This document shows, one piece after another, positions 12,083 through 20,860 of a stretch of DNA of 22,988 bases. A program made the translations under genes and the position numbers. Each line of letters starts with the position of its first letter. The stretch's first letter is position 1. The stretch is from contig DDKG01000057.1 in assembly GCA_002339265.1 (NCBI GenBank), positions 3,286 through 26,273 of the forward strand, written 5' to 3'. The notes under the pieces are model-generated. The model was not told the origin of the DNA. It was given only the letters and a program-made list of their open reading frames with translations, and made no database searches. Source of the DNA: Massilia sp. UBA2604. Lineage in GTDB: Bacteria; Pseudomonadota; Gammaproteobacteria; Burkholderiales; Burkholderiaceae_D.

Positions 12083-12090
12083 TTATACAA
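12083..12090. repeat. Target site duplication, left copy
   Basis: TTATACAA directly abutting the left end of the IS; an exact copy lies at 13161-13168. Eight bases is the length typical of the IS1595 family. Confidence 0.93.
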
Positions 12091-13160
12091 GGCGCTGTCA
12101 CCATTACCTGTGGAGGAGGCCGAACGCGATGCGCAGCAATTGCTCTACGGAAGGAACTCGCCCGCCATCGAGCGCCCAGTGCCACCCCAGGTAGTTAGGC
12201 AGGCGGCGTGACGCCACGCCATGGAAGCGTGCCAGCCATTCCTTGAAACGCCGGTGGTAGGCGTTGACATTTTGAACATGGATCGCTCCCTCGACACCTT
12301 TGCGCACCCTTTCGCCAGCGCTGAGATTGACGGCCTGGTGCGCGATGCCATGAGCACGGGCAAAGGCCGGATAAGCGGCGTTGCCATCGGTGACCAGCAG
12401 CACGTGAAGATCGAGTTTCGGCAGCAGGTACTTGGTCAGCTGGGATGCCTTGAGCGCGCCGCGACCGGTAACGGCATCAATGGTCCGGCCGCTGCGGTCG
12501 CGCGCCACCAGGATGCAGTCGAGGTGATGGGAGATGCCGCGCAGGGCCGCCCGGCCTCCGCGTTTGCGCGGTTGGCGATCGAGCTTGCGTGAGCCCTTCT
12601 GCGATTCGAGCAAGAACGTCTCATCGGCTTCGACGATGCCCGACAGACGCGCCGGCCGATCGTCCTTGACCCGTTCGAGAAAGCGGTGACGCCAGCGGAA
12701 CGCGGTATTACGGTGCACGCCGACACGTTTGGCCGCGGAGCGGACTGTGCGGGAATCGAGCACCGTTTCCAGATAGTCGAGCCACTTGCCCTTGTGCCTG
12801 AGCCGCGCCAGCGGCGTGCCGGTCAGGTCGTTGAAGGTACGGCCGCATGCGCAGCAGCGAAAACGTTGCAGGTCGTTGGCCTGGCCGTGCCGATAGCAAC
12901 GCTCGCAGGCGCACTCCGGGCAGCGCCGACCCTCCGATCGGATCTCGTCAATCAGGGCTACCATGCGGTCCAGCCCGGCTGCCGGATGCAAGGCGGCGAG
13001 CAACTGCCGGCGCTGTGGCTGGTTCAACAGCGTCAGTTGGTCCAGCAGCTGCGCGAACCCTGGTGCTTTCATTGTGCGCTCCCGATCGATGGCGACCAGG
13101 ATTGGACCGAGGATCAGCTCAGCAGTTCACTGCTCATCCATATTTAACGTTGACAGCGCC
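12091..13160 (-). mobile_element. Intact IS1595-family insertion sequence, 1070 bp
   Basis: Terminal inverted repeats begin GGCGCTGTCA at both ends (12091-12100; reverse complement at 13151-13160) and remain partly matched further in (CnCnTTA-like). The element contains one intact transposase gene and is flanked by a perfect 8-bp target duplication TTATACAA. Intact ends, intact gene and perfect duplication point to a recent, possibly still mobile insertion. It separates ubiE from the sequence that formerly lay upstream of it. Confidence 0.93.
12104..13072 (-). CDS. IS1595-family transposase
   Basis: 322 residues. An N-terminal zinc ribbon (C51-x2-C54 and C73-x2-C76, in [14 protein letters not shown] and [15 protein letters not shown]) is followed by a helix-turn-helix ([20 protein letters not shown]) and an RNase H-like DDE-type catalytic core with [26 protein letters not shown] and the C-terminal [20 protein letters not shown] then LPNYLGWHW. 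This domain order and length fit the ISSod11-like branch of IS1595. The stop codon is only 13 bp inside the left end of the element, so the gene nearly fills the IS. No frameshift is seen. Confidence 0.93.
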
Positions 13161-13168
13161 TTATACAA
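13161..13168. repeat. Target site duplication, right copy
   Basis: TTATACAA, identical to 12083-12090, directly abutting the right inverted repeat of the IS. Confidence 0.93.
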
Positions 13169-13626
13169 GCACCCCGGCGGTGGACTGCGCCATTGGCGGC
13201 CGGTGGGCTGGCGCGGACGAAAGCGGCGCGGCGCCAAGTGGATTTGCTGCCCTACGGAATTGTCTCTGTGCCCTTGTTGGACGGGCACAACGCATGGAGC
13301 GCTAACAACCCGCTCAGCAGTGGTTCATGGAGGCGCCCACCCTTCCCCACTACGGTTGACCCCGGTAAGATCGATAGCAGGTCGCCAATAAAGTTGCAGT
13401 CAACTCCTTGAGAAACCATAAAGATTACATACGCCATTGCACATGTCATTGAACTTCTATTAATGTTTGTGCGCCACACCGTATGCATTTCAGGTTTAAT
13501 GGAACAATACTTTTCGCGTCAGCAATCCGCACAAAAGGATTAGTTGCCGCACGGATGCGTTAAGCAAGACGCACCGGAACTCACAACAACGAAAACCGGC
13601 AAGCGCCGGTGATAACGAGGGCAACG
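13169..13626. other. Intergenic region between the IS and the sigma-54 activator gene
   Basis: About 460 bp without a convincing gene. It contains a 7-bp hairpin (TGTGCCC 13267-13273 with GGGCACA 13283-13289), an AT-richer stretch from about 13385 to 13500 with promoter-like elements on the plus strand (TTGCAC 13437-13442, then ATTAAT 13459-13464 at a 16-bp spacing, low confidence), and a small hairpin ACCGGC-AAGC-GCCGGT at 13595-13610, seven bases before the ribosome binding site of the next gene, where it could affect translation. Confidence 0.5.
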
Positions 13627-14967
13627 GTGTCTGTAAAACGTCTTTTATGCATTTCGGGTGAAGGCAGTGCGCACGCACGCGCCTGCCATGGAGAACTGCC
13701 TGGCTGGGATGTGTGCGTGGTCGAGGACATCGCCGCAGCGCGCAAGGTGTTGTCGCAACAACACTACGGCGTCGGCCTGCTGCTCGACTGCAGTGATGGC
13801 GCGGGCGACGCCGAGATCGAGCGCTTCCTGCGCCAGCACCACCATACGCGCTGGATCGGCGTGTTCGATGCGCCGCGCATCGACCAGCCGGCGCTGCGCG
13901 AGCTGGTCGCCGCCCACCTGTTCGATTTCCATACGCGTCCGGTCGACACGCTGCGCCTGAAGCATTCGCTCGGCCATGCGCACGGCATGGCGACGCTGGC
14001 CAAGACCACGCCGCCGCACCGGCGCCAGGCCTCGGAACGGGCCAGCCACATCGACGGCGCCTCGCGCGCCATCGTGCGCCTGCGCGCCCACATCGACAAG
14101 ATCGCCATGGTCGATGCGCCAGTGCTGATCTCGGGCGAAAGCGGCAGCGGCAAGGAACTCGCGGCCCAGGAAATCCACCTGCGTTCGCAGCGCGCGGACG
14201 GCCCCTTCATCGCCATCAATTGCGCAGCGGTGGCGCCGGCCCTGATCCACTCCGAGCTGTTCGGTCACGAACGCGGCGCCTTCACCGGCGCCACCCGCGA
14301 CAAGCCGGGCCTGCTCGAAGCGGCGTCCGGCGGCAGCATTTTCCTGGACGAGATCGGCGACCTGCCACTCGACCTGCAGGCCAGCCTGCTGCGCTTCCTG
14401 CAGGAGCGCGTCATTTATCGCGTCGGCGGCACCCGCACCATCGCGGTCGATGCGCGCGTGATCACCGCCACCCACGTCAACCTGCCGCAGGCCGTGGCCG
14501 AGGGACGCTTCCGCGAAGACTTGTACTACCGCCTCAGCGTGTTCCCGATCGCGGTGCCGCCGCTGCGCGAACGCAAGGAAGACCTGCCGCTGCTGACCGA
14601 CCTCATCTTCAACAAATACGCGGTCGAACGCAGCCCCCAGCTGAAGGGGGTGAGCCGCGAAGCGCTGCTGGCCATGGCGCGCTACGACTGGCCGGGCAAT
14701 GTGCGCGAACTCATCAACCGGGTACGGCGCGCCATGGTGCTGGCCGAACACCGGCTGATCATGCCGGAAGACCTCGACCTGCCCAGCGCCGGCCCGATCT
14801 GCCCGGTCAAGGAAGGCCTCGGCAATTCGCGCCTCTCGGCCGAGCGCATCGCCATCGGCGAGAGCCTGGCGCGCAGCGGCAACAACATCAGCCAGGCCGC
14901 GCGCGACCTCGGTGTCTCACGCATGACGCTGTATCGCCTGATGGCCAAGCACGCGATCTCGCCGTAA
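13627..14967 (+). CDS. Sigma-54-dependent transcriptional activator, VpsR-like
   Basis: 446 residues from the GTG at 13627, chosen because GAGGG lies 5 bases upstream; a GTG six codons earlier lies inside a hairpin. Residues 1-125 form a receiver-like domain with D54 near the usual phosphorylation position and the segment FDFHTRPVD then LGHAHGMATL, which I associate with VpsR-type regulators. The AAA+ domain carries Walker A GESGSGKE (170-177), the sigma-54 contact loop GAFTGA (217-222), Walker B IFLDEI (238-243) and RFREDLYYRLSVFPI. The C-terminus is a Fis-type helix-turn-helix (NISQAARDLGVSRMTLYRL). VpsR-like proteins control biofilm matrix genes. It is directly upstream of, and oriented towards, a sigma-54 promoter driving a secreted fibre-like protein, so that operon is the likely target. 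Confidence 0.9.
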   Translation: MSVKRLLCISGEGSAHARACHGELPGWDVCVVEDIAAARKVLSQQHYGVGLLLDCSDGAGDAEIERFLRQHHHTRWIGVFDAPRIDQPALRELVAAHLFDFHTRPVDTLRLKHSLGHAHGMATLAKTTPPHRRQASERASHIDGASRAIVRLRAHIDKIAMVDAPVLISGESGSGKELAAQEIHLRSQRADGPFIAINCAAVAPALIHSELFGHERGAFTGATRDKPGLLEAASGGSIFLDEIGDLPLDLQASLLRFLQERVIYRVGGTRTIAVDARVITATHVNLPQAVAEGRFREDLYYRLSVFPIAVPPLRERKEDLPLLTDLIFNKYAVERSPQLKGVSREALLAMARYDWPGNVRELINRVRRAMVLAEHRLIMPEDLDLPSAGPICPVKEGLGNSRLSAERIAIGESLARSGNNISQAARDLGVSRMTLYRLMAKHAISP

Positions 14968-15036
14968 GTCCCGACCCAATCCTGTCGTCGGCTTCTTCCT
15001 ACGACCCCTTTCCTTGATTTGACAGGCTTTTCCCGC

Positions 15037-15065
15037 CAGCGCGCTTGCCACACGGCAGCGCGCTG
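15037..15065. other. GC-rich hairpin downstream of the activator gene
   Basis: CAGCGCGC (15037-15044) pairs with GCGCGCTG (15058-15065); inside, TGCC pairs with GGCA across one bulged T. There is no T tract on either strand, so it is not a standard terminator, although it may mark the 3' end of the activator mRNA. Confidence 0.5.
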
Positions 15066-15140
15066 CGGAGCCTTGCTCACTCTGCGGAGAGCGCATTGTG
15101 GTTACACCTTGATACAGTTTGATAGATTTTTCGCTAACTT

Positions 15141-15158
15141 TGTCACAGGCCTGAGACA
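15141..15158. promoter_or_regulatory. Candidate upstream activator sequence (palindrome)
   Basis: TGTCACAGGCCTGAGACA is an 18-bp dyad with a single mismatched pair. It lies 105-122 bp upstream of the -24 element, in the range where sigma-54 activators bind. Assignment to the neighbouring activator is inference. Confidence 0.5.
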
Positions 15159-15232
15159 CTACCGTCAATGACTATTGTCCGCCCTCACTTCCCCCTTCTG
15201 CATCACTAAAACTCATCAAATTAGTCCTACAT

Positions 15233-15245
15233 AATCAAGGACTTA
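15233..15245 (+). promoter_or_regulatory. IHF binding site, perfect consensus
   Basis: AATCAAGGACTTA matches WATCAANNNNTTR at every defined position. It lies between the candidate activator site and the sigma-54 promoter, where IHF bending brings the activator to the polymerase. Confidence 0.6.
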
Positions 15246-15262
15246 AAAATGGCGCATTCATC

Positions 15263-15278
15263 TGGCATGAGTCCTGCT
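15263..15278 (+). promoter_or_regulatory. Sigma-54 (-24/-12) promoter
   Basis: TGGCATGAGTCCTGCT: the GG and GC dinucleotides are exactly 10 bp apart, and the sequence matches the TGGCAY-N5-TTGCW consensus except for C in place of the first T of the -12 box. Predicted transcription start is near 15289, leaving a leader of about 58 bases before the ATG at 15347. It is downstream of a sigma-54 activator gene. Confidence 0.7.
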
Positions 15279-15346
15279 AATGGACGGTTGGACCGGGCGT
15301 CATGGGACCCCGGGAATTCAACTCAGTGACAATTAGGGGAGCAACA

Positions 15347-17581
15347 ATGAAGCGCACTATCCTGGCAACCGCGATCGCCCTGGCATTCAGCATGGCTCAC
15401 GCACAAGAAAACTCCGTCAACGACGTCCGCGGCGGCAACACCCAGACCTCGTCGATGACGACCAACACCGACAGCAGCACTGTCACTGACTCCCGCAACA
15501 GCAACAATACGTCGACGACTTCGAACGACAGCATGAACAACAGCAACAACCAGGCGACGACGACGAACTCGACGACCAACACCGATAGCAGCCAGGCCAA
15601 CAGCAACAACCAGTCGACCAGCACGACCACCAATACCAATAACAGCCAGGCGAACGACAACAGCCAGGCCAACAACAGCAGCACCAATACCGACAGCAGC
15701 CAGACCAACAGCAATAACCAGTCGACCACGACCAACACCAACAACAGCCAGGCCAACAACAACAGCCAGCAAAACAACAACAGCCAGCAGAACGACAACA
15801 GCACGACCAACAACAACAACCAGGTTGACCGCTCGGACAACCGCGTTGTCGACAACCGCAGCACCCAGACGGACACCCGTACCAACACCAACACCGAAAC
15901 GATCGACAGCAACGACACGATCACCACCAACACCACGACCACCAACGACAGCAGCCAGGACAGCTCGGGCCAGAACAACAGCTCGGGTGACGCACGTGCG
16001 GCAGCCGCCGGCGCCGCGGCCTCCAACAACGGTGGCAGCGCCACCTCGTCGGTCGCCAACTCGTTCAACACCTCGTCGGCCAACGCAGTCAGCTCGCTGA
16101 CTGGCACCGTGTCGGGCAACAACATCAGCAACATCGGCAACACCGCCTCGAACACCGGCGGCGCCAACGGCGCAGCCGGCACCGGCTCGGCCGGCGGCGT
16201 GGGCAACGGCGGCACCAACAACGCCACCGGCGCAGCGGGCGGCACCGGCAACGGCGCAGCGGGCGCGGCTGGCGGCGCAGGCGGCTACGCAGCTGCCGGC
16301 ACCGCATCGACCGGTGCATCGACCGTCGGCAACGCCTCGGGCGGCGCAGGCGGCGCATCGGGCGCGGCTGACTCGGTCGGCGGCGCAGGTGCGGCTGGCG
16401 CAGCGGGCGGCTACGCTGCCGGCGGCAACGGCGCGGCGGGCGGCGCAGGCACCGGCGGCGCCGGCGCAGCAGGCGGCGCAGCCAACGGCGGCAACGGCGC
16501 GGCAGGCGGCGCAGCCACCGGCGGCGCCGGCGGCGCGACCGGCTCGCTGGCTGGCGGCAATGGCGGCGCGAACGGCGCCATCAGCACCGGCGCCGGCGGC
16601 GCAGGCGGTGCAGGCGAAGCCAACGGCGGCGCAGGCGCAGCAGGCGGCCTGGGCGGCGCAGGCGGCACCGGCGGCGCATCGTCGGGCTCGACCCTGACCG
16701 CATCGAACGGCGCCAGCGGCGGCGGTGCAGCGATCGGCGACGCCACCTCGACCTCGGGTTCGGGCGGCATGCCAGGTTCGGGCACCGAAACCGCAGGCAC
16801 CGGCGGCGCCAGCGGCGCAGCCACCAACACCGGCGGCACCTCGACCGCAGGCAGCCCAACCAGCGGCGCCAGCTCGGGCACCGCGGGTGACTCGATGGCC
16901 GGCACCGGCGGCGCCGGCGCGGCAGGCGGCGCCGGCGGTTCGGGCGCGGCAGGCGACAACACCTCGGGCGCTGGCGCAGCAGGCGGCGCAGCCACCGGCG
17001 GCACCTCGGGCGCTGGCGCTTCGCTGGCAGGCACCGGCGGCGCCGGCGCAACCGGCACCGCTGGCGCAGGCGGCTCGGGCGCGGCTGGCACGGCCGGCAC
17101 TGGCGGCAACGGCGCGACCGGCACCGGCGGCGCAGGCGGCGCAGGCCAGGGCGGCACGGCTGGCGCGGGCGGCATGGGCGGTTCGGGCGCAGAAGCGACC
17201 GCATCGACCGGCACCGGCGGCGCAGGCGGCTCGTCGACCGGCGGCTCGGCCACCGGCGGTTCGGCCACCTCGGGTGACGCGACCTCGGGCGCCGGCGGCG
17301 CAGGCGGCGCAGGCGGCACCACCAACGGCGGCGCAGGCGGCTCGACCGGCGAAATGGTTGCCGGCGCAGGCACCGGCGGCTTCGGCGGCGCCGGCACCGG
17401 CGGCAACGGCGGCAACAACAGCGTGAATGCCGGTTCGTTCGACATGTCGAACTCGATGAGCAACATCGCCCAATCGGCAGCCGGCATCTCGATCATCAGC
17501 CAGAACAACGGCTTCTCCTCGCTGATCCAGCAAAGCGTCAACGTTCAGTCGAACATGAACGTGGGCGGCTCCGGCCAGTAA
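15347..17581 (+). CDS. Large secreted Asn/Ser/Thr- and Gly/Ala-rich fibre-like protein
   Basis: 744 residues from the ATG at 15347, with GGGGAG 6 bases upstream. A signal peptide (1-19, MKRTILATAIALAFSMAHA) is followed by VNDVRGGN, a double-glycine motif at 28-30. Residues about 31-215 are dominated by Asn, Ser, Thr and Gln in imperfect repeats such as TNTDSSQANSNNQST; residues about 220-690 are dominated by Gly and Ala (GGAGGAG-type runs), with no Cys. The last 55 residues lose this bias and contain GISIISQNNGFSSLIQQSVN, a motif shared with the next gene product. The composition suggests an extracellular, perhaps amyloid or silk-like, matrix fibre. Homology to a named family cannot be claimed from the sequence alone; the role as substrate of the downstream export genes is inferred from context. 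Confidence 0.85.
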   Translation: MKRTILATAIALAFSMAHAQENSVNDVRGGNTQTSSMTTNTDSSTVTDSRNSNNTSTTSNDSMNNSNNQATTTNSTTNTDSSQANSNNQSTSTTTNTNNSQANDNSQANNSSTNTDSSQTNSNNQSTTTNTNNSQANNNSQQNNNSQQNDNSTTNNNNQVDRSDNRVVDNRSTQTDTRTNTNTETIDSNDTITTNTTTTNDSSQDSSGQNNSSGDARAAAAGAAASNNGGSATSSVANSFNTSSANAVSSLTGTVSGNNISNIGNTASNTGGANGAAGTGSAGGVGNGGTNNATGAAGGTGNGAAGAAGGAGGYAAAGTASTGASTVGNASGGAGGASGAADSVGGAGAAGAAGGYAAGGNGAAGGAGTGGAGAAGGAANGGNGAAGGAATGGAGGATGSLAGGNGGANGAISTGAGGAGGAGEANGGAGAAGGLGGAGGTGGASSGSTLTASNGASGGGAAIGDATSTSGSGGMPGSGTETAGTGGASGAATNTGGTSTAGSPTSGASSGTAGDSMAGTGGAGAAGGAGGSGAAGDNTSGAGAAGGAATGGTSGAGASLAGTGGAGATGTAGAGGSGAAGTAGTGGNGATGTGGAGGAGQGGTAGAGGMGGSGAEATASTGTGGAGGSSTGGSATGGSATSGDATSGAGGAGGAGGTTNGGAGGSTGEMVAGAGTGGFGGAGTGGNGGNNSVNAGSFDMSNSMSNIAQSAAGISIISQNNGFSSLIQQSVNVQSNMNVGGSGQ
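15575..15728 (+). repeat. Imperfect 46-bp direct repeat in the Asn/Ser/Thr-rich part
   Basis: Two near-identical segments, about 15575-15620 and 15683-15728, encode TNTDSSQ(A/T)NSNNQST and are about 107 bp apart, with shorter related units (NNSQANNNSQ) between and after them. They indicate growth of the gene by internal duplication. Confidence 0.65.
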
Positions 17582-17629
17582 GCGTCAAACCGGCGGTGCT
17601 CACCGGCCCATGCGCCGATGTGCACCGCC

Positions 17630-17661
17630 CCGCCACGCGGCTTGGCTGCGTGGCGGTTTTT
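17630..17661 (+). terminator. Intra-operon rho-independent terminator or attenuator
   Basis: A perfect 9-bp stem (CCGCCACGC 17630-17638, GCGTGGCGG 17648-17656) is followed by TTTTT. It lies 48 bp after the large structural gene and 13 bp before the start codon of the next gene, leaving the latter's ribosome binding site (GAGG) intact. Partial read-through would make much more structural protein than export machinery. Confidence 0.8.
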
Positions 17662-17674
17662 CGAGCGAGGCATC

Positions 17675-18076
17675 ATGAAACGCATTACCCAGATTAGCGC
17701 TCTCCTGCTGGCGGCCTGCATGGCGCTGCCGGTAGCCGCCCAGGCCGCGGAACCGGCGAAACTGCCGGTGGTGGTGGGCTTCCTGTCGAAGGTGGAAGTG
17801 GCGCCGAGCCGGGAAGACGATCTCGCCAAGGGCTGGGGCAAGGTGACCGAGGCCGAGGAACTGGGTGGATTGCGTGGCGGCGCCGACATCGTGACCACCG
17901 AGGCGACGCTCGGCGGCACGGTCGGCAACAACACGGCCACCAACGTGACTACCGGCTTCAACGTCATCGACAACGGCTCGTTCGCGAACTCCTCGGGCTT
18001 GCCGGTCGTGATCCAGAACTCCGGCGCGAACGTCCTGATCCAGAACGCGACCGTCATCAACCTGCAATTGCAATAG
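17675..18076 (+). CDS. Small secreted partner protein with fibre-type C-terminal motif
   Basis: 133 residues from the ATG at 17675, preceded by GAGG. The export signal is ambiguous: signal peptidase I cleavage near AQA-AEP (about residue 24), or a lipobox LAAC ending at C15. A double-glycine motif EELGGLRGG ends at residue 69, and the following 64 residues are rich in Thr, Asn, Val and Ile. The C-terminal GLPVVIQNSGANVLIQNATV aligns well with the C-terminus of the large upstream protein (GISIISQNNGFSSLIQQSVN), including a preceding GSF. I infer a minor fibre subunit or nucleator, comparable in role to FapB or FapE, but no named family is recognised. Confidence 0.75.
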   Translation: MKRITQISALLLAACMALPVAAQAAEPAKLPVVVGFLSKVEVAPSREDDLAKGWGKVTEAEELGGLRGGADIVTTEATLGGTVGNNTATNVTTGFNVIDNGSFANSSGLPVVIQNSGANVLIQNATVINLQLQ

Positions 18077-18089
18077 GCATCGGAAGAGA

Positions 18090-18764
18090 ATGAAGCACGG
18101 GATCTTCCTCGCCGCCCTGTGCGGCATCCTGCTGGCGCCGGCTCCGGCGCCAGCACTCGAACTGGCGGTGGTCGGGCGCGTCAACGTGCCGGTCACCAGC
18201 CTCAAGGACATCAAGTTCCAGCGCACCACGCGCCAGCAGTACGACTACAGTTGCGGCGCTGCCGCCGTGTCGACCCTGCTGTCACATCACTACAACACCC
18301 CGACGCCTGAACAGGACGTGTTCAAGGAGATGTACGAAAAGGGGGACAAGCCCAAGATTCACAAGGAGGGCTTTTCGCTGCTCGACATGCAGCGTTTCCT
18401 GGCCGCGCGCGGCTTTCGCGCCGACGGCTTCAAGCTGCCGATCGAAAAACTGATCGAAGAAAAACTGCCGGCCATCGTCCTGATCACCGACCGCGGCTTC
18501 AACCATTTCGTGGTCGTCAAGGGCTTTGAAGACGGCCGCATCCTGATCGGCGATCCGTCCACCGGCAACCGCGTGGTCAGCATGGAGCGCTTCCAGGAAA
18601 TCTGGCGCAGCAAGATCCTGTTCGTGATCCACAGCCACAAGGACGGCATCGCCTTCAACAACCCGGCCGACTGGCGCGGCGCCCCGCGCGCGCCATTGGG
18701 AACCGGCATGCACCAGGACCAGCTCAGTGCCTCGCTGCCGAAATTCGGCCCGGGCGATTTTTGA
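18090..18764 (+). CDS. Periplasmic C39-type cysteine peptidase (FapD-like)
   Basis: 224 residues, with GGAAGAG just before the ATG. A signal peptide (about 1-22, MKHGIFLAALCGILLAPAPAPA) predicts periplasmic location. The C39 catalytic residues are in place: Q49 (six before the nucleophile), C55 in YDYSCGAAAVSTLL, H139 in FNHFVVVKGF and D155 in LIGDPSTG. C39 peptidases cut after double glycines; those in bacteriocin exporters are cytosolic and fused to ABC transporters, whereas stand-alone exported forms such as FapD occur in amyloid-secretion operons. The neighbouring secreted proteins all carry an RGG motif, the probable substrates. It is 13 bp after the previous gene and 14 bp before the next, clearly one operon. 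Confidence 0.85.
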   Translation: MKHGIFLAALCGILLAPAPAPALELAVVGRVNVPVTSLKDIKFQRTTRQQYDYSCGAAAVSTLLSHHYNTPTPEQDVFKEMYEKGDKPKIHKEGFSLLDMQRFLAARGFRADGFKLPIEKLIEEKLPAIVLITDRGFNHFVVVKGFEDGRILIGDPSTGNRVVSMERFQEIWRSKILFVIHSHKDGIAFNNPADWRGAPRAPLGTGMHQDQLSASLPKFGPGDF

Positions 18765-18778
18765 CTAAAGGATGTGAT

Positions 18779-19318
18779 ATGCGCTGGCTTCCCCTCAAAT
18801 CGATGATCCAACGCGGCCTGCTGGCGACCGCCCTGTGCGCGGCGCTGGGGACAATGCCGGCGGTGCAGGCGGCCGATGCCGCCGCAAGCACCGGGATTGC
18901 CGGCTTCGGCACGCCGGTCGGGGCCGAGACGCTGGACGATACCCGCGGCGGCTTCGAAATCGCAGGCGGCCTGTCGGTGGCGCTCGGCATCGAGCGCGTG
19001 GTGTCGCTCAACGGCGAAATCCTGTCGCGCACCAATATCGCGATTCCCGACCTGGCCGCGATGACCGCCGACCAGGCCCGCCTGACCCAGGAAGCGCTGG
19101 GCGCGGCGCGCATGATCCAGATCGGCGGCAACAACTTTGCGGCGGCCGACCTCAACCTGCCGAACGGCGCGACGCTGGTACAGAATACCCTCGACAACCA
19201 GGCGATCAGCTCGGTCACGACCATCACCTCGGCCGTGAATAGCATGTCCTTGCTAAAAGACATGAATTTCCACAGCACGATACGCGACGCCGTCGTACGT
19301 TCCCCTGGAACACTGTAA
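18779..19318 (+). CDS. Secreted partner protein of the fibre operon, unknown family
   Basis: 179 residues from the ATG at 18779, preceded by AAGGA at good spacing; a TTG overlapping the previous stop codon is less likely. The signal peptide covers about residues 1-31 (ends TMPAVQA-ADAA). The double-glycine motif AETLDDTRGG ends at residue 58 and is followed by FEIAGGLSVALGIERVVSLN. The body is Asn/Ala/Thr/Ile-rich, with NGATLVQNTLDNQAISSV, a weaker version of the LIQN-type motif of its neighbours, and no Cys after the signal peptide. It may be a minor subunit, nucleator or secretion adaptor (FapE-like role by position between FapD-like and FapF-like genes). No homology is claimed. Confidence 0.75.
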   Translation: MRWLPLKSMIQRGLLATALCAALGTMPAVQAADAAASTGIAGFGTPVGAETLDDTRGGFEIAGGLSVALGIERVVSLNGEILSRTNIAIPDLAAMTADQARLTQEALGAARMIQIGGNNFAAADLNLPNGATLVQNTLDNQAISSVTTITSAVNSMSLLKDMNFHSTIRDAVVRSPGTL

Positions 19319-19354
19319 TATTGCAAAATTGTTAATATAAAACTGGAGATCTGG

Positions 19355-20860
19355 ATGTATCCACACGTCGCGCGGCTTGGCGCCGCCGGCCTGGCGGCCG
19401 CCCTCCTGGCGCCGCCCGTGCTCGCCCAACAACCTGCTGCCGAGCGTGGCACGCAGGACCACAAGACCGAACTGTCCCAACTCAAGGACGAACTGGCCGA
19501 ACAGCGGGCATTGGTGAATCGTCTGGTGCTCGAACTCCAGGCCCAGCGCGAACAGCTGCAAAAGATGCAGGAGCCGGCCGCCCCGGCGCTGGCGGCGCGC
19601 GAGCGCATCGTGGAAGAAACCACCCCGCTGTCCGGCGCCCCGTTCGCCGTGCCGACCGCGCTGGCCGACGGCGTCCTGCTGTCGCAGCAGCGCGGCGCCG
19701 GCATGTCGATGCAGGCGCCGGTGGCCCAGCCGCCGGTGCTGCCGCCGGCCGAGAGTGGCGTGGCGGCCCCGCTGCCGCCGCAGCCGCGCCCGAACCAGCC
19801 GACTCTCCCGGCGCCGGGTCCGGCCCAGGCGCAGACCCAGCGTCCGGCTCAGCAAGGTCAGCAGCAGACGGCGCAGAACAACAATCGCCAGGAACCGAAC
19901 CGCCCGCCCGAAGTCGCGCCGATCGGCGATACGCCGGGCGTACTGACCCAGCGCGGCACCTATGTGCTGGAGCCGTCGGTGCAGTACGGCTACTCGTCGA
20001 GCAACCGCGTGGCCCTGGTCGGCTATACCGTGATTCCCGCGATCCTGATCGGCCTGGTGGACGTGCGCGAGATCAAGCGCAATACCTTCACCACGGCGAT
20101 CACCGGCCGCACCGGCATCAACAACCGGATGGAAGTCGAGGTCAAGGTGCCGTATGTGTACCGCTCGGACGCCACCGTCAGCCGCGAGCTGTTCACCGGC
20201 ACTGCGGTCGAGCGCGTGTTCGACACCACCGGCAAGGGCCTGGGCGACATCGAGGTCGCCGGCCGCTACCAGCTCAACAACGGCGGCCCGGACCAGGGCT
20301 ATTACATTGCCGGCCTGCGCTACAAGAGCCGCACCGGGCGCGATCCATTCGAGGTCGTGACCGACTGCGACCAGCGCTGCATCGGCGAGAACGTGACCGG
20401 CACCGGCCTGCCGCTGGACCTGCCCACCGGCTCCGGCTTCCATTCGCTGCAAGGCACCCTGACCTGGCTGTATCCGTCGGATCCGGCCGTCTTCTTCGGC
20501 AACCTGAGCTATGTGCACAATTTCAAGCGCGACAATGTGACGCGCCTGGTGCGCAACGGCGTGCGCGAGCCGCTGGGCGAGCTGGAACCGGGTTACGTGC
20601 TCGGCTTTAACTTCGGCATGGGCCTGGCGCTGAACGACAAGGCCTCGCTCAGCCTGGGCTACGACCACAGCACCATCGCGCGCATGAAGCAGAACGGCCA
20701 ACCCGTGGCCGGCTCGGTGCGCACCCAGCTCGGCACCCTGCTGCTCGGCTACTCGTACCGCCTGAGTCCGAAGCGCACGCTGAACATCGCGGTGGGCGCC
20801 GGCGTGACCCGCGACACCCCGGACGTCACCCTGACCCTGCGTGTGCCGATGACGTTCTGA
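19355..20860 (+). CDS. Outer-membrane barrel with N-terminal coiled coil (FapF-like export pore)
   Basis: 501 residues; GGAG lies 8 bases before the ATG. A signal peptide (about 1-24) is followed by a heptad-patterned coiled coil (about 36-71, with L40, L43, L47, V54, L57, L61, L68), a Pro/Gln/Ala-rich linker (about 72-190) and a C-terminal domain of alternating amphipathic strands (YVLEPSVQYGYSSSNRVAL, then VLGFNFGMGLALNDKASLSL) ending in Phe (RVPMTF), as expected of an outer-membrane beta-barrel inserted by BAM. FapF of Pseudomonas has the same plan, coiled coil then barrel, and exports the amyloid subunits. A pair of cysteines three residues apart (DCDQRC) lies in what is probably an external loop. 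It is the last gene of the operon. Confidence 0.8.
   Translation: MYPHVARLGAAGLAAALLAPPVLAQQPAAERGTQDHKTELSQLKDELAEQRALVNRLVLELQAQREQLQKMQEPAAPALAARERIVEETTPLSGAPFAVPTALADGVLLSQQRGAGMSMQAPVAQPPVLPPAESGVAAPLPPQPRPNQPTLPAPGPAQAQTQRPAQQGQQQTAQNNNRQEPNRPPEVAPIGDTPGVLTQRGTYVLEPSVQYGYSSSNRVALVGYTVIPAILIGLVDVREIKRNTFTTAITGRTGINNRMEVEVKVPYVYRSDATVSRELFTGTAVERVFDTTGKGLGDIEVAGRYQLNNGGPDQGYYIAGLRYKSRTGRDPFEVVTDCDQRCIGENVTGTGLPLDLPTGSGFHSLQGTLTWLYPSDPAVFFGNLSYVHNFKRDNVTRLVRNGVREPLGELEPGYVLGFNFGMGLALNDKASLSLGYDHSTIARMKQNGQPVAGSVRTQLGTLLLGYSYRLSPKRTLNIAVGAGVTRDTPDVTLTLRVPMTF

Follow-up and report, generated by a model that had tools for sequence, protein, structure and literature searches.

Background

The Fap amyloid system of Pseudomonas (fapABCDEF) is the closest described relative of a gene cluster that we analysed in Massilia sp. 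UBA2604, within a stretch of 22,988 nucleotides (contig DDKG01000057.1, positions 3,286 to 26,273 of the forward strand; hereafter the window). In Fap, the C39 peptidase FapD and its catalytic cysteine are required for secretion of FapC, which a Cys-to-Ala mutation abolishes (PMC5557850). The same source describes the target of FapD as unclear and the Fap proteins as being without canonical C39 sites, mentions the linker of the pore FapF as another proposed target, and reports that mass spectrometry of FapE yielded no peptides from approximately the first 70 residues. A review of 2025 repeats FapE and the periplasmic region of FapF as presumed targets, in the wording 'thought to' (PMC12822426). 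Variation of the operon and the FapF linker are treated in PMC3792158 and PMC6173795; fapA is absent in six of 16 genera (PMC3792158), and fapD-fapF pairs have been noted in five additional phyla (PMC6173800).

The cluster of Massilia encodes a sigma-54 activator and, downstream of it, three exported proteins named here S1, S2 and S3, an exported C39 peptidase and a pore. It probably encodes a secretion system of a sister class to Fap, in which a short tag, LxxxRG, would be read or cut by the periplasmic C39 peptidase and a fibre would be exported. An earlier note on this DNA had proposed a Fap-like fibre secretion operon with an unusual giant substrate; its observation was correct and its inference largely right.

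The gene cluster and its conservation

As the earlier note described, a sigma-54-dependent activator is followed by five genes on the plus strand. The activator (13609..14967, alternative start 13627, plus strand) has an N-terminal VpsR domain, an AAA+ domain and a Fis-type helix-turn-helix (Pfam PF00158, 7.8e-67; PF20161 VpsR, 1.3e-12; PF02954, 1.6e-9). Then come S1 (15347..17581, ATG start, 744 aa), S2 (17675..18076, 133 aa), the C39 peptidase (18090..18764), S3 (18779..19318, 179 aa) and the pore (19355..20860, 501 aa).

The C39 peptidase, S3 and the pore are found together in 28 of 145 genomes of the family sampled for co-occurrence, so the gene set is more than a chance assembly. Counted singly, 29 genomes have a pore match at E<1e-57 (41 at E<=1e-3), 29 have S3, and 28 have a peptidase match at E<1e-100 (35 at E<=1e-40). 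The exceptions, G072 with the pore only and G047 with S3 only, are fragments from assemblies that are 86-89% complete.

Gene order was considered in the best 80 of 491 loci (hereafter the named loci), 53 of them uncut and 27 cut by contig ends. They are labelled Massilia, Telluria, Janthinobacterium, Duganella, Pseudoduganella, Rugamonas, Herbaspirillum, Rhodoferax and Oxalobacteraceae/Burkholderiaceae; the closest to the window among them is Massilia timonae, whose pore is 96% identical. The activator is found in all 53 uncut loci and the complete set of activator, S2, C39 peptidase, S3 and pore in 52 (L162 has no S3). The five genes keep a single order on a single strand in 50, and the strand of the pore is reversed in two more. 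S2 was detected in 75 of the 80 named loci. Thus the co-occurrence on which the earlier note had made its proposal depend was borne out by the survey of the gene neighbourhood.

A phylum-wide search with the pore provided 20 further loci. S3 is present in ten of these, from nine other families (L111-L120, E from 2.5e-50 to 9e-4), and was not found in the ten Fap-type loci (L101-L110).

Some loci deviate in the placement of the pore gene. In L044, L049, L050, L054, L055, L056 and L058 it is opposite in strand to S2-C39(-S3) and adjoins a sigma-54 activator. A second pore paralogue occurs in genome G019 (L053, 2897-4093, minus strand), with no match to the C39 peptidase, S2 or S3 within the fetched 15 kb.

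The pore and the C39 peptidase

The pore has a signal peptide, a coiled coil (19454-19570), a linker predicted to be disordered, and a barrel (about 19949-20857, all on the plus strand), the combination of coiled coil and outer-membrane barrel in one protein that had been noted before. Its closest relative is FapF both in a sequence search against solved structures (PDB 5o67, E=4.3e-26) and in a Foldseek search with its AlphaFold model, where FapF chains occupy all of ranks 1-18 (best E=4.6e-17), followed by COG4313. The mean pLDDT of the model is 63.7, with higher values in most barrel strands, and there is a helix at residues 34-72. The LPTG motif of the pore is invariant in alignment A3; FapF has a PTG motif (PMC6173800). 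In the linker, all 28 alignment rows share L109, R113 and G116, and 27 of them share G114. In six Duganella loci (L175, L176, L184, L192, L193, L197), the pore has neither the coiled coil nor the linker.

The peptidase carries a signal peptide and matches the C39 family (Pfam PF03412, 4.2e-22). The catalytic residues Cys55, His139 and Asp155 are intact, as the earlier note observed; they are invariant in 27 of 27 alignment rows (L040 was left out), and the C39 motifs are found in 74 of 75 proteins from the named loci. Among the NCBIfam models, the peptidase matches FilB of the putative Fil 'pilus' system (6.7e-40) and FapD (NF058616, 1.2e-36, 126 bits against a cut-off of 330), and the pore matches FapF (NF058560, 8.1e-43, 147 bits against a cut-off of 700) and FilC (1e-15). 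Since all four matches are below the curated cut-offs, both proteins are, by sequence, kin of the Fap machinery and not its named members.

The C39 tree has 58 rows (L066 was omitted as too short). The Fap rows lie on one side of a branch with support 77/64, and the present class forms, together with five loci from other families, a clade of 33 rows with support 100/98 and no Fap rows inside. The deeper position of the five other S3 loci and of the Fil-like rows is not settled, and long-branch warnings apply.

The exported proteins and the Fap subunits

S1 consists, from N- to C-terminus, of a signal peptide, an Asn/Ser/Thr/Gln-rich part (15437..15979, about 180 residues, ~80% N+S+T+Q), a conserved block, a Gly/Ala-rich part (16187..17416, about 410 residues, 42% G and 26% A) and a conserved C-terminal segment, QNNGFSSLIQQSVNVQ (17417..17578), with a spacing like that of the Fap repeat. 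It is the putative major fibre subunit. S1-like open reading frames were found in 91 loci, with lengths from 193 to 889 aa (not dereplicated, and some cut by contig ends). The minus strand opposite S1 contains an open frame of 736 aa (15323-17533), probably a by-product of the skewed composition of S1. Of the three exported low-complexity or Asn-rich proteins reported in the earlier note, only S1 is of low complexity; S2 and S3, both exported as well, are small and end in conserved N/Q segments, that of S2 being a single repeat-like segment.

The earlier note saw no FapA-like chaperone, and none was found by phmmer with four FapA proteins at E<=1 in the six frames of the window and in the open reading frames of L031-L058; the same search recovered FapA in all four held-out canonical loci (E from 1e-40 to 3.5e-7). 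A profile built from 35 canonical FapB/C repeats found 2-3 repeats in each of eight FapB/FapC-type open reading frames of the four held-out canonical loci, missing FapC of L101. At iE<0.01 it matched none of 91 S1 and none of 102 S2 proteins, sets that are not dereplicated, as some genomes are present both under a G handle and as a named record. Because both FapA and the three-repeat subunits FapB/C are absent in these positively controlled tests, the system, which by its sequences would work like Fap, is filed as a sister class and not as Fap itself; the separate class that had been suggested thus holds.

It is rather unlikely that the cluster is simply a diverged true Fap, with S1 as FapC, S2 as FapB, S3 as FapE and fapA lost. 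Such an origin would agree with the gene order, as subunit(s)-C39-S3-pore mirrors BC-D-E-F, and with the loss of fapA from some genera mentioned above. At iE<1 the repeat profile faintly matches 83 of 102 S2 proteins and none of 102 reversed sequences, and a relaxed form of the Fap-repeat spacing occurs at the C-terminus of 88/102 S2 and 87/91 S1 proteins, a hint only, as the pattern was set after viewing, has no null and was applied to the same redundant sets. With the strict spacing the counts are 14/91 for S1 and 0/102 for S2, the canonical FapC of L101 also having none. Against this explanation stand the absence of significant repeat matches from a profile that recognises canonical subunits, the scores of the peptidase and the pore far under the FapD and FapF cut-offs, the clade without Fap rows in the C39 tree, and the description of Fap operons as almost invariably three-repeat (PMC12822426). 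The earlier statement that the main substrate looks nothing like FapC is upheld in that S1 has no match to the repeat model, and is slightly too strong in view of the Fap-repeat-like spacing at the ends of S1 and S2.

S3 occupies the position of FapE. A comparison of S3 and FapE profiles gave E=1.7e-6 with the signal peptide and E=1e-3 (probability 21%) without it, six controls giving E from 0.066 to 0.58, and no match between the profiles was found beyond the tag described below. Therefore the link of S3 to FapE comprises, at the sequence level, the N-terminal tag region and the gene position. The idea of S3 as a full-length homologue of FapE found no support, as profile similarity outside the tag is undetectable. 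The predicted model of S3 is of low confidence (mean pLDDT 67.7, pTM 0.43).

The LxxxRG tag

A tag with the pattern L(-7)xxxR(-3)G(-2) is common to S3, S2 and the linker of the pore. In the window it reads LDDTRGG followed by F in S3 (18932..18952), LGGLRGG preceded by E in S2 (17861..17881) and LSQQRGA in the pore linker (19679..19699). It was found in 81 of 83 non-identical S3 proteins, as LxxxRGG, in 75 of 85 S2 proteins and in 75 of 88 pores, counts that demanded L, M, I or V at -7 and R, T or K before G and are therefore conserved in these columns partly by construction; less biased evidence comes from the shuffles and from alignments A1 and A3. In A1 (27 rows of S3) residues R56, G57, G58 and F59 are invariant. 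The leader of S2 is otherwise hypervariable, and among its 75 fitting proteins R is at -3 in 71 and G at -1 in 66. The pores that do not fit are five cut by contig ends, the six without coiled coil, L044 and L198.

Shuffled sequences, which here and in the promoter and hairpin tests below kept the single-letter composition only, gave an expectation of 0.78 for the S2 tag against 70 of 84 observed and of 0.32 for the pore-linker tag against 73 of 81. The stricter pattern [LM]xxxRG[GRK], required within residues 16-190 of the longest open reading frame in the named loci, was seen in 61/75 S2, 60/74 S3, 1/75 C39 and 0/80 pore proteins; the pores drop out because their -1 position is T or A, and the other counts are reduced because over-long frames shift some tags outside the range. 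Among other open reading frames near these loci it occurs in 119 of 4349, and in 3 of the 231 that have a signal peptide by a crude criterion. In the ten wider relatives S3 has LxxxRGGF in 10/10 and S2 has [LM]xxx[RS]G[GR] in 10/10.

Double-glycine leaders, which are cut by C39 peptidases, have L at -7 and G-G at -2/-1. The tag resembles such a signal, placed behind a Sec signal peptide: its L-7 and G-2 G-1 are found in the N-terminal leader of the S3 proteins and, with G at -1 in 66 of 75, of the S2 proteins counted above. It may be a cutting or docking site of the periplasmic C39 protease.

A similar tag occurs in Fap itself. In 21 Fap-type genomes (L071-L091, eight of which exceed the NCBI FapF cut-off), the open reading frame between fapD and fapF contains [LM]xxxRG[RK][YF] in 19 and LxxxTGKY in one (L091); in the remaining genome, G275, no tagged fapD-fapF frame was found. 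At L109 (4338-5360, minus strand), which belongs to the only Fap-type genome where the tag was not detected, the frame between fapD and fapF has a single Fap-repeat match, iE 1.4e-4. The FapE frames were chosen by motif search; in their alignment (A4, 20 rows) G is invariant and R is present in 18. The tag of FapE is a candidate site of FapD. No paper on such a tag was found in a literature search that did not cover most subscription journals.

Proposed mechanism

The sequences suggest the following scheme. The sigma-54 promoter and the VpsR-type activator would give abundant S1, and an attenuator-like hairpin would lower the expression of the downstream genes. Judging from their signal peptides, S1, S2, S3, the peptidase and the pore would cross the inner membrane by Sec. 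Once in the periplasm, the C39 peptidase would recognise LxxxRG in S2 and S3; in most Oxalobacteraceae it would recognise the tag of the pore linker as well. Most likely it cuts at these places; S2 and S3 would thereby lose an N-terminal pro-leader, and a cut in the linker would release the coiled-coil gate or reset it. Export of S1, S2 and S3 through the pore would follow, and these proteins would build a surface fibre: S1 would supply the bulk, S2 would act as nucleator or minor subunit, and S3 would take the place of FapE.

Several observations weigh against cleavage at the tag or limit its reach. Ten S2 proteins have an altered tag, six of them [TA]SGK-like and four HAG-like. The -1 position of the pore tag is never G, being T or A in 66 of 75, and that of FapE is R or K in 20 of 20 rows. 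R or K at -1 is unusual at C39 sites. The gap in FapE peptides, about 70 residues long (PMC5557850), extends past the tag at about 35-42. A pore-linker tag with RG is present in only 3 of the ten wider relatives (RA in two more) and in 1 of 21 Fap-type genomes (LxxxTGK in two more); given this rarity and the six Duganella pores without a linker, linker cutting cannot be essential to the class. The pore-linker tag thus appears largely confined to one branch, and the idea that it is general to Fap was rejected on the same counts. We also rejected a tag general to S1, since only 6 of 91 S1 proteins carry it, although in the window S1 has xxxRGG past the signal peptide, like S2 and S3. In the coil-less Duganella loci the S2 tag is HAG-like in four (S3 has RAG in L184 and CGG in L192), whereas L193 and L197 keep RGG in both S2 and S3.

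The same secretion system might use LxxxRG as an uncut signal for docking or targeting to the pore coiled coil or to a C39 chaperone. The variable -1 position (G, T, A, R, K and others, with R/K throughout FapE) and the existence of C39-like domains acting as chaperones (PMC6173800) would fit; however, the catalytic triad is invariant, the Cys-to-Ala mutant of FapD abolishes FapC secretion (PMC5557850), and the tag also sits in the predicted disordered linker of the pore. We consider uncut docking unlikely. A pilus-like, non-amyloid system akin to the putative Fil is quite improbable: the peptidase fits FilB slightly better than FapD and the pore also matches FilC, but the pore matches FapF far better, and no Fil model of NCBIfam matched S1-S3 at E<=1, the range of other Fil models in that library being unchecked. 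That no fibre is exported and the barrel is a solute porin amid unrelated small proteins, the outcome that the earlier note had set against itself, is hardly credible, since the COG4313 channel 4rl8, although a fold match of the pore, is more distant (E 9.9e-12) than FapF, and the pore strictly co-occurs with the C39 peptidase and S3.

A general two-leader export code may be envisaged, to which we give somewhat less than an even chance. A Sec signal peptide would be followed by an LxxxRG[G] leader, and a free periplasmic C39 peptidase would read this leader and mature the fibre subunits; in one branch the pore linker would also be cut, coupling maturation to the opening of the gate, and canonical Fap would be included through FapE. 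The code possibly extends to other exported-C39/barrel loci, as four of ten such loci have a candidate segment in a small exported neighbour. These are the distant loci L064, L066, L067 and L069, whose small exported neighbours have MDxVTAG-, LDQVAGG- or ELSHIKGT-like segments past the signal peptide, which may represent a second leader of a related kind. No such segments were seen at L060-L063, L065 and L070 in a filtered list of same-strand genes.

Regulation and neighbouring elements

In most loci a sigma-54 element GG-N10-GC lies about 76-99 nt upstream of S1. In the window it is TGGCATGAGTCCTGCT (15263..15278, plus strand), 84 nt upstream of the ATG. The element scores at least 9 of 11 in 69 of 72 upstream regions of S1 and in 2.6% of shuffles, and that of the window scores 9 of 11 by the same count. 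Taken alone, the loose sigma-54 pattern shows no enrichment in the window, with 43 matches against 37.9 expected.

The gap between S1 and S2 contains a hairpin of 12 bp followed by TTTTT (17630..17656, plus strand, z=-3.9), similar to an attenuator. Of the 70 S1-S2 gaps compared, 31 have a terminator-like hairpin (1.4 in shuffles), and by this test there is none in the other 39. Such hairpins would be expected if S1 is made in excess.

An insertion element of the IS1595 type lies between ubiE and the operon (12083-13168). Its transposase gene is on the minus strand (12104-13072, PF12762, 2.6e-13), and its inverted ends are 36 nt long and 78% complementary.

Comparison with known systems

No paper on the present class or on Fil was found in the literature search described above. 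With the putative Fil system, named in NCBIfam and known from Acinetobacter, the cluster shares a peptidase fitting FilB and a barrel fitting FilC; unlike Fil, its pore is far closer to FapF and S1-S3 have no Fil match at E<=1 among the models compared. Ahead of the mature part, the tag has L at -7 and G-G at -2/-1, like the double-glycine leaders of type 1 exporters. Unlike them, it stands behind a Sec signal peptide and has a near-invariant R at -3, and the C39 enzyme is a separate exported protein. Curli (type VIII) works alike, with Sec export, an outer-membrane pore and amyloid subunits with N/Q repeats, but no homologous part was seen among the matches obtained, no search aimed at curli having been made.

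The closest likeness is to Pseudomonas Fap: an exported C39 peptidase, a pore with coiled coil and barrel, N/Q-bearing exported subunits, the gene order D-E-F, and the LxxxRG tag in both FapE and S3. The present class differs in having neither FapA nor FapB/C with three imperfect repeats, in its giant main substrate, rich first in Asn/Ser/Thr and then in Gly/Ala, and in the full RGG tag of S2 and S3, the tag in the pore linker and the sigma-54/VpsR control. It thereby qualifies the view that three repeats are a fixed feature of Fap-type systems. A published Fap screen demands a FapB/C repeat hit and would for this reason be expected to miss the class (PMC12392863). S1, as a putative fibre subunit, offers a new Gly/Ala-rich fibre material. 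Which protein FapD chiefly acts on, and at which site, has been a question ever since its essential role was established (PMC5557850; still 'thought to' in PMC12822426), and a sister class with the full RGG in two exported proteins and a tag shared with FapE makes this question addressable by point mutation.

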